A DNA stretch of 64,000 bases, taken from positions 360,796 to 424,795 of the forward strand of contig OY811972.1 in the NCBI GenBank assembly GCA_963681505.1. Direction: 5' to 3'. This document shows positions 21,541-54,173 of this stretch, in pieces (position 1 is the stretch's first letter; each line of letters starts with the position of its first letter). Below the pieces are notes generated by a model that made no database searches, had not been told where the DNA came from, and worked only from the letters and a program-made list of their open reading frames with translations. The stretch is from Eunapius fragilis. Lineage: Eukaryota > Porifera > Demospongiae > Spongillida > Spongillidae. The translations under genes and the position numbers were made by a program.

Positions 21541-22972
21541 AACATTCAGATACAAACATTAGGTGTGAAACTCCAGCTTATATACCAGGTGAGCCAGAGG
21601 TCACCACATCTGAATTTACTGCCATAAATGCCGAACACGTGAAAAACACTTTGATGCCATGCATGCACTAAATAAAAAAGCATGTTTGAATGTAGTGATA
21701 CCTTCATCTTTTATGCATAGAAGACCAAAAGTAAACATTGATTCCCCACCATACCAGCCTTGCCATCAGAGGTCTGGCATTTGACCTCTCTGAGGCTGGC
21801 CATGCTGGATGGGAAGTGACTTAACGTTAACCTTTGGAATTTGCAACTAAAAAACGCTATAGGTATAGACATGTATAGGACACCAGCAAATCACCATTCT
21901 GCATAGCTATATATATGCAATATAATTAACCGTATATACATAAAGTAACATACCTTCGCAAACTTACAACGCCCAAATTTCATATCTCTTCACTTATTTC
22001 GATTGCACACCATTTTTTTCTATGGCAAAATTCGTCAAATTCGGTTGTGTTACTGACTTGTGTAAAGTGGAAGCTTGTAAGCTTTTAATTGTTCCAATCG
22101 TTGACTTGGAACGTTATCTTCTGTGCAAAGTAAGTGGACATTTTCTCCATTGATTAATTTTCCTGGTCGATCGCGAGATTGCGATATTGGTTTACTAATT
22201 CATGCATAGTCACCTAGCGTTAACAACACATTCGTTGCCTCGTGATTAGGTAAGCTGAATTCAAAGCTGCAAAGAGGATAATTAAGCAGTACATCTATAT
22301 GTACAACCTAATTACCCAACCACTTAGATGGGTTGGGCAGCATACCGCGGGGCAGTGTGTTATGCTCCCGGCAACCACGACGTGACGGGAATGGGGGGGG
22401 GGGGGGGGGGGGGGAGTGGTAGTCTCGTACCCAGACCCACCCTTACGTAAGCATTATCGCATAATGTATAATACTACGTAGAGAGGGTCTGGCCAATAGG
22501 TCGAAGAAAGTTGTTCTGTGCGCCGGAATGTTGGCGCGTCCAATCAGAATGTTGGAATGTGAGTGACGTAGATTATTTGAATTCCAGACTTTGAATTACG
22601 CCCACTTGATACAATATGGACTTAGACGGCATCGTTACAAGGTTACTCAAACCATAGATAGTCTAAACTATCTATGCCGTGAAAACCAGCTCAATGGAGT
22701 CATACAAGGCATCTCTAAACTATCTATGTACAAGGGAACGATGTCTTTATCATTCTTCCTACGGGAAGTGGCAAATCCCTTTGCTACGCTATTTTCCCGT
22801 TTGCCTTCGATGAGCTGCGTGGTTGTGAAGGTAGCCTTGCCATCGTTGTTTCTCCTCGTAGCTCTCATGTAGGACCAGGTTCGTAATTTGTAACTTAGTA
22901 GTGCTTTTTTTCATTTGTGTACTATTTTTCCTAAAGGTGACTTCACTAACTTCAAGAGGTTTGTCAGCAGTC

Positions 22973-24112
22973 TATGCCCTCACTCTCCAAAGCCACCTGG
23001 AGATGCCCACACTCTCCAAAGCCCACTCTCCAAAGCCACCTGGTGATGCCCCCACTCCTGGTGATACCCACACTCTCCAAAGCCACCTGTAGATGCCCTC
23101 ATTCTCCAAAGCCACCTGGGGATGCCCACACTCCTGGTGATGCCCACACTCTCCAAAGCCACCTGTAAATGCCCCCACTCTCCAAAGCCCCTGGTGATGC
23201 CCTCACTCTCCAAAGCCACCTGGAGATGCCCACACTCTCCAAAGCCACCTGTAGATGCCCCTCACTCTCCAAAGCCCCTGGTGATGCCCCCACTCTCCAA
23301 AGCCACCTGTAGATGCCCCTACTCTCCAAAGCCACCTGGTGATGCCCCCACTCTCCAAAGCCACCTGTAGATGCCCCTACTCTCCAAAGCCATCTGGTGA
23401 TGCCCTCACTCTCCAAAGCCACCTGTAGATGCCCCCCACTCTCCAAAGCCCCTGGTGATGCCCCCACTCTCCAAAGCCACCTGTAGATGCCCCTACTCTC
23501 CAAAGCCACCTGGTGATGCCCTCACTCTCCAAAGCCCCTGGTGATGCCCCCACTTCTGGTGATGCACACACTCTCCAAAGCCACCTGTAGATGCCCCCCC
23601 CCCCACACACACACACACACACACACTCCAAAGCCACCTGGTGATGCCCCTACTCTCCTCAGCCACCTGGAGATGCCCCCCACACTCCAAAGCCCCTGGT
23701 GATGCCCACACTCTACAAAGCCACCTGGAGATGCCCCCACTCTCCAAAGCCCCTGGTGATGCCCTCACTCTCCTGAGCCACCTGGAGGTGCCCCCACTCT
23801 CCAAAGCCCCTGGTGATGCCCACACTCTACAAAGCCACCTGGAGATGCCCCCACTCTCCAAAGCCACCTGGGATGCCCCCACTCTCCAGAGCCACCTGGA
23901 GATGCCCCTACTCTCCGGAGCCCCTGGAGATGCCCCCACTCTCCGGAGCCACCTGTCCTGTAGATGCCCCCACTCTCCAAAGCCACCTGGTGATGCCCAC
24001 ACTCTCCAAAGCCACCTGTAGATGCCCCCACTCTCCAAAGCCACCTGTAGATGCCCTCACTCTCCAAAGCCACCTGGAGATGCCCCCACTCTCCAAAGCC
24101 ACCTATAGATGC
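22973..24112. repeat. Large 28-bp-class minisatellite inside the TIR element
   Basis: Roughly forty copies of a unit like 'ctctccaaagccacctg' plus 'tagatgcccccact', with variants ('gagatgcc', 'gtgatgcc', and units shortened to 'aaagcccctgg'). Variants are interleaved, suggesting higher-order expansion. A CA run interrupts the array at about 23604-23626. Long open frames on both strands are artefacts. Confidence 0.9.
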
Positions 24113-24274
24113 CCTATGTCATTAAATATACATAGGTGGTCCCCTGGGGGGCCACTGCTCAACACATGGCTACCCTAACCCTCCAGATCACACGGCTAAG
24201 GCAACAACCTCTGCTGGCCTCTACAGTACTATATGGCCCGCACCCTATTCACCCCACAATGGCAGTCTGCACCC

Positions 24275-24600
24275 AACCTAAGGCTACGCATACAGCCTGC
24301 ACCCTACCTAAGGCTACTCATACAGCCTGCACCCTACCTAAGGCTACGCATACAGCCTGCACCCTACCTAAGGCTACGCATACAGCCTGCACCCTACCTA
24401 AGGCTACTCATACAGCCTGCACCCTATCTAAGGCTACGCATACAGGCTGCACCCTACCTAAGGCTACGCATACAGCCTGCACCCTACCGAAGGCTACTCA
24501 TACAGCCTGCACCCTACCTAAGGCTACGCATACAGGCTGCACCCTACCTAAGGCTACGCATACAGCCTGCACCCTACCGAAGGCTACTCATACAGCACCC
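24275..24600. repeat. 30-bp minisatellite inside the TIR element
   Basis: About eleven head-to-tail copies of a 30-bp unit, 'acctaaggctacgcatacag' plus 'cctgcaccct', with few substitutions (c/t at 'acgca/actca', g/c at 'aggctg/agcctg'). The 30-bp period keeps three frames open. The units are much more uniform than the neighbouring 28-bp array, so it is probably younger. Confidence 0.9.
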
Positions 24601-24754
24601 CATTCACTCCACTGCTAGCCTAGGGCATGACGGTCGGCTCTTGCCTCCCTTAGCTACAAATAGCCATTTGGGCCTGTGGTCTCACAAGGTGCTCTGCCTT
24701 ACCCCCTTCTACTGCATGCACTTGCTACAGGTGGGAATTAACAGTTCATGTAGA

Positions 24755-25118
24755 TTACATAATTGGATGAAGTTGTTGTTTTAAGACTTCTATCCACTCA
24801 TGAACTCTACTGTCATGGTTCATTCCAAGCTTGTGGATGATCTGTCTGGTAGCCTCATCAGAGAGACACATACCAAGCTTTTGTAACCTTGAGTACACCT
24901 AAAACAAAAAAAGGAAATCTTTGTAAATCAGTTTCTACATCAATGGACTGACATTTCAAAGCCTGATACTTTTCTATCGTTACAAAACATTTTCTGCAGA
25001 CATATCCAGAGCTGAACTCGTGTTCAAAGCTGATGTGATCGACAGTGATCCCATAGCCAAGAGCAACAATACCATCCCTGTGATGACGCGCTTTCAAGAA
25101 GCCGTCTGTTCTTTGCTT
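24755..25118 (-). pseudogene. Two-exon remnant of an element-type zinc-binding protein
   Basis: On the minus strand, exon 25118-24939 follows an acceptor 'ccgttttag', and exon 24898-24755 follows 'tttgttttag'. Both are phase 0 if the intervening donor is 'gtagaa'. The first exon ends in a C-x2-C pair within 'FSSGYVCRKCFVTIEKYQAL'. The second reads 'YSRLQKLGMCLSDEATRQII' and 'KLGMNHDSRVHEWIEVLK', then TAA. I recall a similar combination (a treble-clef-like zinc site, then an 'LxxLGLCxS' helix pair) from hypothetical, probably transposon-derived proteins of sponges and cnidarians, but I cannot name a family. It lies within the TIR element and lacks a start codon and any catalytic domain. Confidence 0.4.
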
Positions 25119-25224
25119 CTAAAACGGCCGAGCTCAGCGGTTCATAATTGATTAAATTCCACAAATTCGTGACGACACAAAAATGTTATACGTCACAAGT
25201 ATTATGTAACATCTAGCATACCAT

Positions 25225-25335
25225 CAACATTCCAGGAACAACTTTCTTCGACCTATAGACCTTTTTCATCACATGACCAAGTTACATTAAACGTGACGTC
25301 ATTTACGTAAGCCGCCATCTTGGTGCACAGCTGGC
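25225..25335. repeat. Internal repeat of the TIR element's subterminal sequences
   Basis: On the reverse strand this matches sequence just inside the left TIR ('taggtcgaagaaagttgttc' near 22496-22515). On the forward strand its continuation ('agacctttttcatcacatga', then 'gccgccatcttggtgcacag') matches, in inverted orientation, sequence just inside the right TIR (26500-26570). So parts of both subterminal regions meet here, as if an older or shorter copy ended at this point. Confidence 0.5.
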
Positions 25336-25989
25336 ATAGACACGACCATAGATTTATCTACGCAACGACTAATTCCGCTTCAGAAAACTGATGTCAAAGA
25401 TATTATACGGAATAATTCCTCTCAAGATACATCAGCAAGACTGCTATCATTATAACGCGTACGTATAAGGCTCGGATAATCCGTTTTGCGTTGAGCTTGT
25501 ATTTTCCCCTTTGGACGCCTGCAGGCCGGCTGCGAGCAATTCGGTATCTTATTTTGTGCTGCAAACAAATTTCGAAGCAATTCATACATGCAGTTTAAAA
25601 ATTAAGCCCCCTATACAACCAGCGTTAGCGGCTGCATGGCCTGTCAGAGACTAAATCTGGGTCTGTCACTGATGCATGCACAAATATTTCGGTCGCTTTA
25701 ATTTTGATCCGGCCGGACCAAATGAAAACGAGCGCCAGAAATATTCCGGCCGGGCTGAAACTGAATGGAGAGATCACCTGCATGCATGTATATGTACGCC
25801 AATACGAAAGTGTTCATAGCGAACAGGTACGTGTCTATAAGCTACAAGATCGCAGTGCATAATGGGTTCTGGCCAACTTCTGGGTGGCCTTTCGTTCATG
25901 CATGTGTTCTCGCTCCGCTTTCGGCAGTCAGTATTGGCACATAAACATATACAAGCATCAAATGGGTGCATTTCAAGTAGAGAACCGCG

Positions 25990-26005
25990 TGGTGTGTGTG
26001 TGCGT

Positions 26006-26065
<60 letters not shown>
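25990..26065. repeat. TG/GT microsatellite
   Basis: A nearly pure TG dinucleotide tract with a few 'cg' interruptions at its start. It lies within the TIR element. Confidence 0.95.
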
Positions 26066-26067
<2 letters not shown>

Positions 26068-26658
26068 ACAACAAAGCGACGCGTATCTGCCATATCCATT
26101 TGCGTATAAGCTCCTTTCGTGATGTTTCATATACGCTCATAGCTGATATCAGGTGTCATAACTACGTACGGCTGCTCTGACGCCGTTCGCATCCTTTTAC
26201 AGTGACCATGCAAGTTGTAGAGTCGGTATAACCAATCTTGGTTGAATTTGTTATACAGTGTAGCCAGCTGGCTTTCGGGATTGAAAGGCACTCAATATTT
26301 GCTAGCGTCGTCTTTATTATGCCTTGTCTTGAAAGAGCATCGAGGCAGCCGTCTCTTCGTCTTTGGCTGAGCTCGCGTTCACGTTCTCCTCCAATGTGGT
26401 TAATAACAGCAGATATTCGATGGAAAGAGAGATCTTTATTCTTTATCAATCACAGAACACTTGAAACACCAAATTACTGCACACAATACAATAGTACCTG
26501 TGCACCAAGATGGCCGCCACCGGTGTTTCACGTGATCTAGTTAATTATCTTGTGACACATGAAAAAGGTCTATTGGCCAGACCCTCTCTACGTAGTATTA
26601 TACATTATGCGATAATGCTTACGTAAGGGTGGGTCTGGGTACGAGACTAGGGGAGTGG

Positions 26659-49208: not shown

Positions 49209-50883
49209 GTGATACGACAATGAAAGGCCTAATACGATTACAGGTTGTGGGGTGGAGGGAGGTCCCCCTTTGTGATATATATATATATATATAATAGGTC
49301 TGTAATGCAAAAACAACTAACTGGCAGCACTGCAAGAAGAATATCAGTGGTTTCACTAGATAATTTTCCCTTGGATCTCACAATGTATTGGTGTATAATT
49401 GAAAACACTTCTAATTATAATATCATTTCAACCTACAACGTTTTGCATCTCATCCGGTGCTAGTCACGAATACAAGGACAAATTTAATTTAAACTCAGCA
49501 TTCAAAGACGTCACTGACTCACTGCCACACCCAATCGGTCGGGACTGCTCGGTAAAAATTTAAAATATCGCTTCAAAAGTACCTATCGCGCTCCGCGTGT
49601 TGCGCACACTTTAAAGAAGTGCCAGCCCGGCCGGGCACTTCTATAAATACAATATATAATGCCTATACAATGACGTGGAAGGTACCTAACCGGAGCATTA
49701 TGTGACGTATACTTACTTGCAGGCACACTATATATGAAGTGGTCCGGTTATATTTAACACAACCAGTGCTGCCGCGACATGAGTAAAATATCGTATTGTA
49801 TCGCGATATTATTAAGTATATTCATCGAGCAATTATTTGTCTAAATAATCGCACAATTTTCATAGCTGAGGCTGCGTTGTTGTGGCGGCGATAGAAGAAC
49901 CAACACATAAACCTTCCTATCATGCTGTAGTGCAGGGGAGATATCGTGAATTCTACCCCCATTACGTTACAATCCCTCGACTGCTCCTTCAGAAGGGTTT
50001 CTCACGGCATGAGTTATATAAACCAGAAAAGAAATGATGGAGCCGCAGCGGACACCAGAATTAACGGCTGGGTCAATCCATTTTCAGTGGTAAAATGCAA
50101 ATAAAGTGGGGTTCGTGTTGTAATTTTGCCGCTCTACAAGTAGCCCCTCCCCCACCTCATTAAATAAAAAAACCTACGAAAACAGGTATTTATAAGCGTT
50201 CGCGGTTACGAGCCATATCATTTTTATTTCGATGGGGGCCGGGCGGATATATGTGTACGCAGTACGGCAGCGTGTATGGTCGAAAGCTAGTTGCACCTGC
50301 TGAATTACTTCGTATATTTCCGTCTATCTCTGTCCATTCTTCCATGTATCTCCGTATATCCCATACACGTTTGTATCGCGATATGACCAAAAGATATATT
50401 GCGGCAGCCCTGAACACAACTCACCTGCGGAAGGAGGGGGGGAGTTCTTATTGCCTCCCCGGTCCCAAGCATGGTCTAGTTTGTGAAAGGAAATGTTTGC
50501 TATCAGCTGTATCGGTTAATAATTGTCCCCGTGCCCATGCAAATTATCGTAGCTGCGCTATTTGGACCTGGGTACGAGACTAGTGTGGTGCCGAATTATT
50601 TTCATTTATGTTTCTTTTCTCGGAAATCCACAATCGAAAAATATAAATACATGCATTCAGTTTGTGCGCCTGCGTGCGCCAGCTGATCTATATTCACTAT
50701 CTAACCGCGCAATAATCTGAGCGCTAGCTCCAGTCAGCTTATATGCATGAGCCAGCCAGACATAAACTGTAATATAATTCCGATCGTCTGTTTTAAAATC
50801 ATACATTTGAAATGCACATATATATGCATAAATCTGAGCTAGGAGGCGCGGTTATGGTATGTCTCCTCCTTTTCCCTCTAGCT
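49209..50883. other. Spacer between HIBCH and the PLAC8 gene
   Basis: No recognised gene. It contains a short TA run near 49277-49293 and a terminal motif 'ctgggtacgagactag' at about 50568-50583, the same as the end of the 22-26 kb TIR element and possibly a solitary terminus. The rest is unique-looking, AT-rich sequence. Confidence 0.4.
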
Positions 50884-53911: not shown

Positions 53912-53996
53912 CTAGTCTCGTACCCAGATCATCACCGCTGGTGATCTCATCACCCGCGCAGCTATACCCATGCAGTGTCGGCCTGGGTACGAAACC
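53912..53996. mobile_element. Tiny element or relic with TIR motif of the 22-26 kb element
   Basis: The left end 'tagtctcgtacccag' and right end 'ctgggtacgaaacca' are near-inverse and match the first 15 bp of the 80-bp TIRs at 22420/26649. Only about 85 bp separates the outer ends. It may be an internally deleted copy. Confidence 0.4.
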
Positions 53997-54173
53997 ACAT
54001 GTTGCGGTCCGGCATCTCCTGCAGCATGCGGGGCTTTCCACCATGCCAGTTAATTATCCATGCATGTGTGCACGCAACTCACTACAGTTTCATATAGGCC
54101 AAATTATGCATGGCATGGCATGCATGTGCGGCTACACTTAAAATAAAAAACCCCTTCCGTCGCCACTGTTCAG

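Follow-up and report, generated by a model that had tools for sequence, protein, structure and literature searches.

We analysed a window of 64,000 nucleotides from Eunapius fragilis (C2:360796–424795), that is, the whole stretch of DNA under study, and used the 218,937,333-base assembly of 24 contigs for genome searches. The window contains an element bounded by terminal inverted repeats (TIRs) and target site duplications (TSDs) (Table 1). The two 80-bp TIR arms are 100% complementary and lie 4,070 bp apart, and GGGGAGTGG is found on the outer side of both. From left to right, the left TIR is followed by a plus-strand helicase remnant, one minisatellite with a 29-bp unit and a second with a 30-bp unit, two minus-strand exon remnants and the right TIR. 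The frame of the helicase remnant, in which we take ILPTGSGKSLCYA to be the Walker A motif, is broken upstream by short insertions. Two of these, each with CTAAACTATCTATG, lie at 22650–22722 of the window, and in the sister copy L038 a larger insertion is located within the first of the two. When a 12-base core was counted with fuzzy matching, 13 of the 14 oriented copies had between 5 and 49 units of the 29-bp minisatellite, and the 585-bp copy L033 had none. Exon 1 of the second gene is open in several sister copies.

The perfect match between the TIRs extends no further than 80 bp, as the right TIR is interrupted there by a separate repeat (approximately 25257–26570). Consistent with this, an inverted match of 92% between 22491–22516 and 25236–25261 places the inner part of the right TIR at 25236–25253, displaced from its outer part. 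The 4.2-kb span is therefore composed of a host element of ~2.9 kb and an insert of ~1.3 kb. A genome search with the nested repeat (query 25261–26572; best 40 of 86 candidates scored) found at least 11 full-length matches including the window copy, the other ten at 94–98% identity, and TAT flanks the repeat at both sides in all five other copies examined. A preliminary description of the locus had proposed a non-autonomous TIR element that moved recently and has identical arms and a 9-bp target duplication, and all of this agrees with the identical TIRs and the genuine 9-bp TSDs. Its reading of a complete 4.2-kb element stands for the ends and the TSD, but not for the ~1.3 kb of the nested repeat. 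The minisatellites of the interior are likewise present, but the protein remnant regarded as foreign is part of a RecQ-like helicase, and pieces of a transposase-like second gene are present on the minus strand, where no transposase had been recognised.

Table 1. Features of the element in the window (positions are those of the window)
Feature	Position	Strand	Remarks
Left TSD, GGGGAGTGG, 9 bp	22411–22419		
Left TIR	22420–22499	+	80 bp perfect; homology to displaced right TIR runs to ~22516
Imperfect internal palindrome, CCAGACCC...GGGTCTGG	within left TIR, 22420–22499		
RecQ-like helicase remnant, first coding part	22734–22856	+	Pfam and PDB matches of open version in copy L029
Minisatellite, ~29-bp unit	22974–24114		
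Minisatellite, 30-bp unit, ~11 copies	24263–24596		
Second (transposase-like) gene, later-exon remnant	24758–24898	-	57% identity to L053 over 40 amino acids
Second gene, exon 1 remnant, N-terminal part with CxxC	24927–25185	-	8 bases fewer than copy L022
Right TIR, inner part, displaced	25236–25253	-	Inverted match with left TIR
Nested ~1.3-kb repeat, inverted ends GACCTTTTTCAT, TAT target	25257–26570		Unrelated to host element
Right TIR, outer 80 bp	26570–26649	-	Base 26570 common to nested-repeat end by coincidence
Right TSD, GGGGAGTGG, 9 bp	26650–26658		

The TIR is present in many copies across the assembly. A search of the kind that the preliminary description had recommended returned at least 44 matches, a lower bound given that the best 40 of 165 first-look candidates were scored, and many of these lie in pairs that face each other at distances of 0.1 to 4.2 kb. 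In a first TSD count of 26 two-ended elements (17 window-family members plus 9 relatives, 2 of them longer and 7 small), a perfect 9-bp TSD borders 20 elements, all 20 sequences differing, and a 10-bp TSD borders one. The imperfect cases are L026 and L032, both with homopolymer surroundings, together with L033, L054 and, matching at 8 of 9 bases, L056. A second count added seven further pairs: L082/L083 (C5) has a perfect 9-bp TSD, L046 and L048 each match at 8 of 9 bases, the 103-bp pair in L039 at 7, L047 at 6 and L080/L081 at 1, and L075/L076 (C8) lies in poly-G, where the TSD is uninformative. Altogether, 33 two-ended elements of the window family and related families were compared, of which 22 carry perfect informative TSDs (21 of 9 bp and 1 of 10 bp) and three match at 8 of 9 bases; L055, L057, L059 and L060, each with at least one end not located, stand outside the counts. 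Within the window family, the 9-bp TSD is perfect at 14 of 17 elements, or 14 of 20 after the addition of three more two-ended ones (two of them at 8 of 9 bases). By comparison, random pairs of 9-mers drawn from the window match with a probability of ~8.5e-5. The duplication GGGGAGTGG is more than an extension of a poly-G run, since it includes AGTGG and 13 other family copies have different perfect 9-bp TSDs of their own; the poly-G explanation that the preliminary description had named as a possible refutation is thereby ruled out.

An empty site further supports transposition. The joined flanks of L031 (C16) match L037:6983-6448 at 94% over 536 bp, and this paralogous site contains a single copy of the 9-mer with one mismatch and lacks the element. 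Among 13 sister copies searched against a limited set of sequence, L031 gave the one clear case; short spanning matches of 77–79% were found for L028, and weaker additional ones for L031. For the window element itself, a search with its right flank turned up no second copy. With respect to the target, a run of at least 9 G or C lies no more than 30 bp away from 3 of 26 insertions (background in the window, 2.0%; binomial p 0.014). We do not claim a poly-G target preference, as the signal is weak, the elements were chosen non-blindly and L075/L076, located in poly-G, falls outside this count. The 64-kb window itself holds 22 G or C runs of at least 9, and a few family insertions adjoin such runs. 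Several copies are of interest in their own right. L034, L035 and L036 are only 116–131 bp long; each consists of two TIR parts that face each other and is bordered by a perfect 9-bp TSD. In addition, a 5.8-kb stretch that includes a window-family TIR and the helicase piece is 99.8% identical between L043 (C12:6176000-6185999) and L049 (C2:5208000-5217500), on two chromosomes.

Two longer relatives, L052 (C10; ~5.2 kb, TIRs of 108 bp at 95%, TSD ACAATTAAT) and L053 (C8; ~5.3 kb, TIRs of 124 bp at 92%, TSD CCCCACGAA), have ends of the window type; both carry frames of a RecQ-type helicase on one strand and a multi-exon gene convergent to them. In L052, the Pfam domains DEAD, ResIII and Helicase_C score above the cut-off and RecQ_Zn_bind below it, and the second gene corresponds to Pfam DUF6589 on two exons (E 5.5e-38 and 6.9e-11). 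L053 and L052 share 57% identity in the last exon, which is of the DUF6589 type in L052. No MULE (Mutator-like element) or Mutator domain was detected up to E 1 in seven long frames of L052, the sole relative scanned with Pfam.

Our comparison reveals that the interior of the window element retains remnants of both genes. The helicase piece, in its open version in L029, matches Pfam DEAD above the cut-off (E 3e-7), and its top matches in the PDB are BLM, RECQ5 and RecQ chains (E 2e-4 to 8e-4); the same listing of 26 sequences also includes three RNA helicases (E 0.002 to 0.007). The later exon of the second gene is 51–57% identical to its counterparts in L052 and L053 (E 1e-14 to 3e-14), and exon 1 is 31–36% identical (E 4e-10 to 1e-7). 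The gap between these two exons measures ~730 bp in L053 and 28 bp in the window, indicating that intervening coding sequence is missing. The pooled pairwise ratio of nonsynonymous to synonymous differences (pN/pS) of exon 1 is 0.77 over 78 non-independent pairs from 13 window-family copies, a value that gives no clear sign of purifying selection, and the idea that the exon-1 frame is kept by selection, as for a repressor, was dropped.

The two genes also recur together in relatives. In a pairing test on divergent rows outside the window family (55 of 77 exon-1 matches and 116 of 150 helicase matches), a helicase match lies within 15 kb of 30 of the 55 second-gene exon-1 matches, where 0.87 would be expected by random placement, and 29 of these 30 pairs are convergent. 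The pairs are not independent, as many are copies of each other, and small elements in which the two exons lie 58–100 bp apart make up 17 of the 30. Because an inward-reading helicase and an inward-reading second gene at opposite ends recur in the relatives, the helicase remnant appears to be the transposon's own, and its capture as cargo, which the preliminary description had proposed, is unlikely in light of these sequence comparisons. Ten small elements, L054–L063 (C8, C2, C21, C11, C12, C3, C1 and C16), have the first exons of both genes facing each other 58–86 bp apart; both ends were located in six of the ten, each ~0.9 kb long.

The DUF6589 exon has at least 127 matches in the genome (best 119 of 242 candidates scored), and the 99–100% identical copies among them on C10, C12 and C5 suggest recent activity of the DUF6589-bearing subfamily. 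Across eight partly fetched relatives, the motifs GDN[IVL]D, GGD[QH] and EH[LI]N[RK] occur in six, six and seven, respectively, and all three together in four; L052 reads GGYQ at the second. These motifs may contain the D, D and E residues of a transposase. When the DUF6589 exon was compared with PDB sequences, a single match at E 2.1 was returned. DUF6589 is without mention in the literature searched, which was mostly open-access, so that its role may already be published.

The window family thus has multi-copy TIRs, 9-bp TSDs, an empty site at a sister copy and remnants of both genes of the longer relatives, and the window element is very probably a cut-and-paste DNA transposon from the AcademH lineage that is internally deleted and non-autonomous. 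AcademH, a member of the Academ superfamily, was reportedly described by Kojima (2020, Mob DNA 11:15). The 9- and 10-bp TSDs (21 and 1 of 33), the superfamily II helicase of L052 with its remnant in the window, and the TIRs of window, L052 and L053 are in line with this lineage, and it is on TSD length and helicase that the family fits AcademH. The window copy differs from it in being internally deleted and in containing two minisatellites and the nested repeat. In excerpts of PMC10045372, AcademH is given TSDs of 9 or 10 bp and tied to a helicase, whereas AcademX, of the same superfamily, has TSDs of 3 or 4 bp and a nuclease. Several observations weigh against our assignment. The AcademH placement follows from TSD length and helicase, not from homology of the transposase to Academ. 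DUF6589 was found in none of the 20 two-ended window-family elements (at least 127 matches, from the best 119 of 242 candidates scored; one-ended copies were only partly checked), and the coding partner of this very subfamily was therefore not found. Furthermore, the helicases of the window family and of those coding-type relatives that were examined share ~54–67% identity, and 11 of the 33 elements lack a perfect informative TSD. No description of the window family was found in the literature searched; its kind is already known.

The first of these observations, together with the silence of the mostly open-access literature on DUF6589, would also suit a separate, unnamed superfamily that has both a DUF6589 transposase and a RecQ helicase but merely resembles AcademH. 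We consider this improbable, as a helicase and TSDs of 9 or 10 bp, both lengths being found here, are the very traits reported for AcademH in those excerpts (PMC10045372). The next reading is that of the preliminary description, which had assigned the element to Mutator and recommended a search for a MULE-type partner. Long TIRs with 9-bp TSDs are typical of Mutator as well, and both are found in this family. A non-autonomous Mutator element with captured host sequence is nevertheless very improbable, because the interior pieces of the window element match both genes of longer relatives that share its ends, and these relatives encode a RecQ-type helicase and, in L052, DUF6589, with no MULE domain in the seven L052 frames. 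The TSD of Kolobok is the 4-bp TTAA, unlike the 9- and 10-bp TSDs found here. A KolobokH relative is accordingly a negligible alternative, although KolobokH is also a DNA transposon group and is listed with AcademH as helicase-bearing in an excerpt of PMC10799480. Finally, an inverted duplication or assembly artefact, for which nothing but the single locus would speak, is practically dismissed by copies across many chromosomes, differing TSDs and an empty site.

For the AcademH-like element of the window, we propose that the transposase of a longer relative, of the DUF6589 type and with candidate D-D-E residues, would recognise the shared end TAGTCTCGTNCCCAGACC, excise the element and join it at cuts staggered by 9 bp. 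The RecQ-like helicase would assist, possibly through the unwinding of ends or of repair intermediates. As the window copy encodes neither protein, it would be mobilised in trans; the TAT-target repeat inserted into its right end afterwards.

The terminal 18-mer TAGTCTCGTNCCCAGACC occurs 2,587 times in the genome (1,308 + 1,279; reversed control, 0), and GGTCTGG lies 34–60 bases inward at 819 of these sites (control, 0). Degraded copies of the terminal motif are also located at 53913–53997 and 50565–50582 of the window; the sites 53913 and 53997 lie in facing orientation inside an 85-bp span and resemble a tiny fold-back element. In single-strand folds of the TIRs of eight elements, computed with RNA energies, CCAGACC(C) pairs with (G)GGTCTGG. 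The alignment of group A, in which some of the 14 rows are identical, yields 24 predicted pairs, of which 4 have changed on both sides with pairing kept. In group B, RNAalifold on a MAFFT alignment did not recover the outer stem, though single sequences form it. With the outer motifs removed, all 21 TIR interiors analysed fold better than their shuffle mean (median z −2.1; 11 of 21 below −2; window sequence −1.8); 20 of them, from 43 listed inner-motif sites, carry the inner motif by construction and are related rather than independent sequences, and one is from L053. DNA folding of the whole TIR gives z values of −3.4 for the window, −2.1 for L052 and −7.6 for L053. These predictions provide mixed support for a tendency of the TIRs to fold as imperfect hairpins. 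A more speculative model, which we regard as rather unlikely, holds that the ends of the lineage are imperfect hairpins with ~11 unpaired terminal bases and a ~62-bp palindrome, whose inner stems vary between subfamilies with pairing kept, and that transposition may need cruciform or hairpin ends to be opened or resolved by the transposon's own RecQ-like helicase. If true, this model would explain why the helicase travels with the transposase.

Our analysis indicates that this transposon group is very abundant in the Eunapius fragilis genome, as reflected by the number of exact terminal 18-mers. It also links DUF6589, a Pfam family of unknown function, to a probable transposase that has a RecQ-like helicase as its partner, and the nearly identical coding relatives, with 99–100% identity in the DUF6589 exon, offer test material for the role of a transposon-borne helicase.

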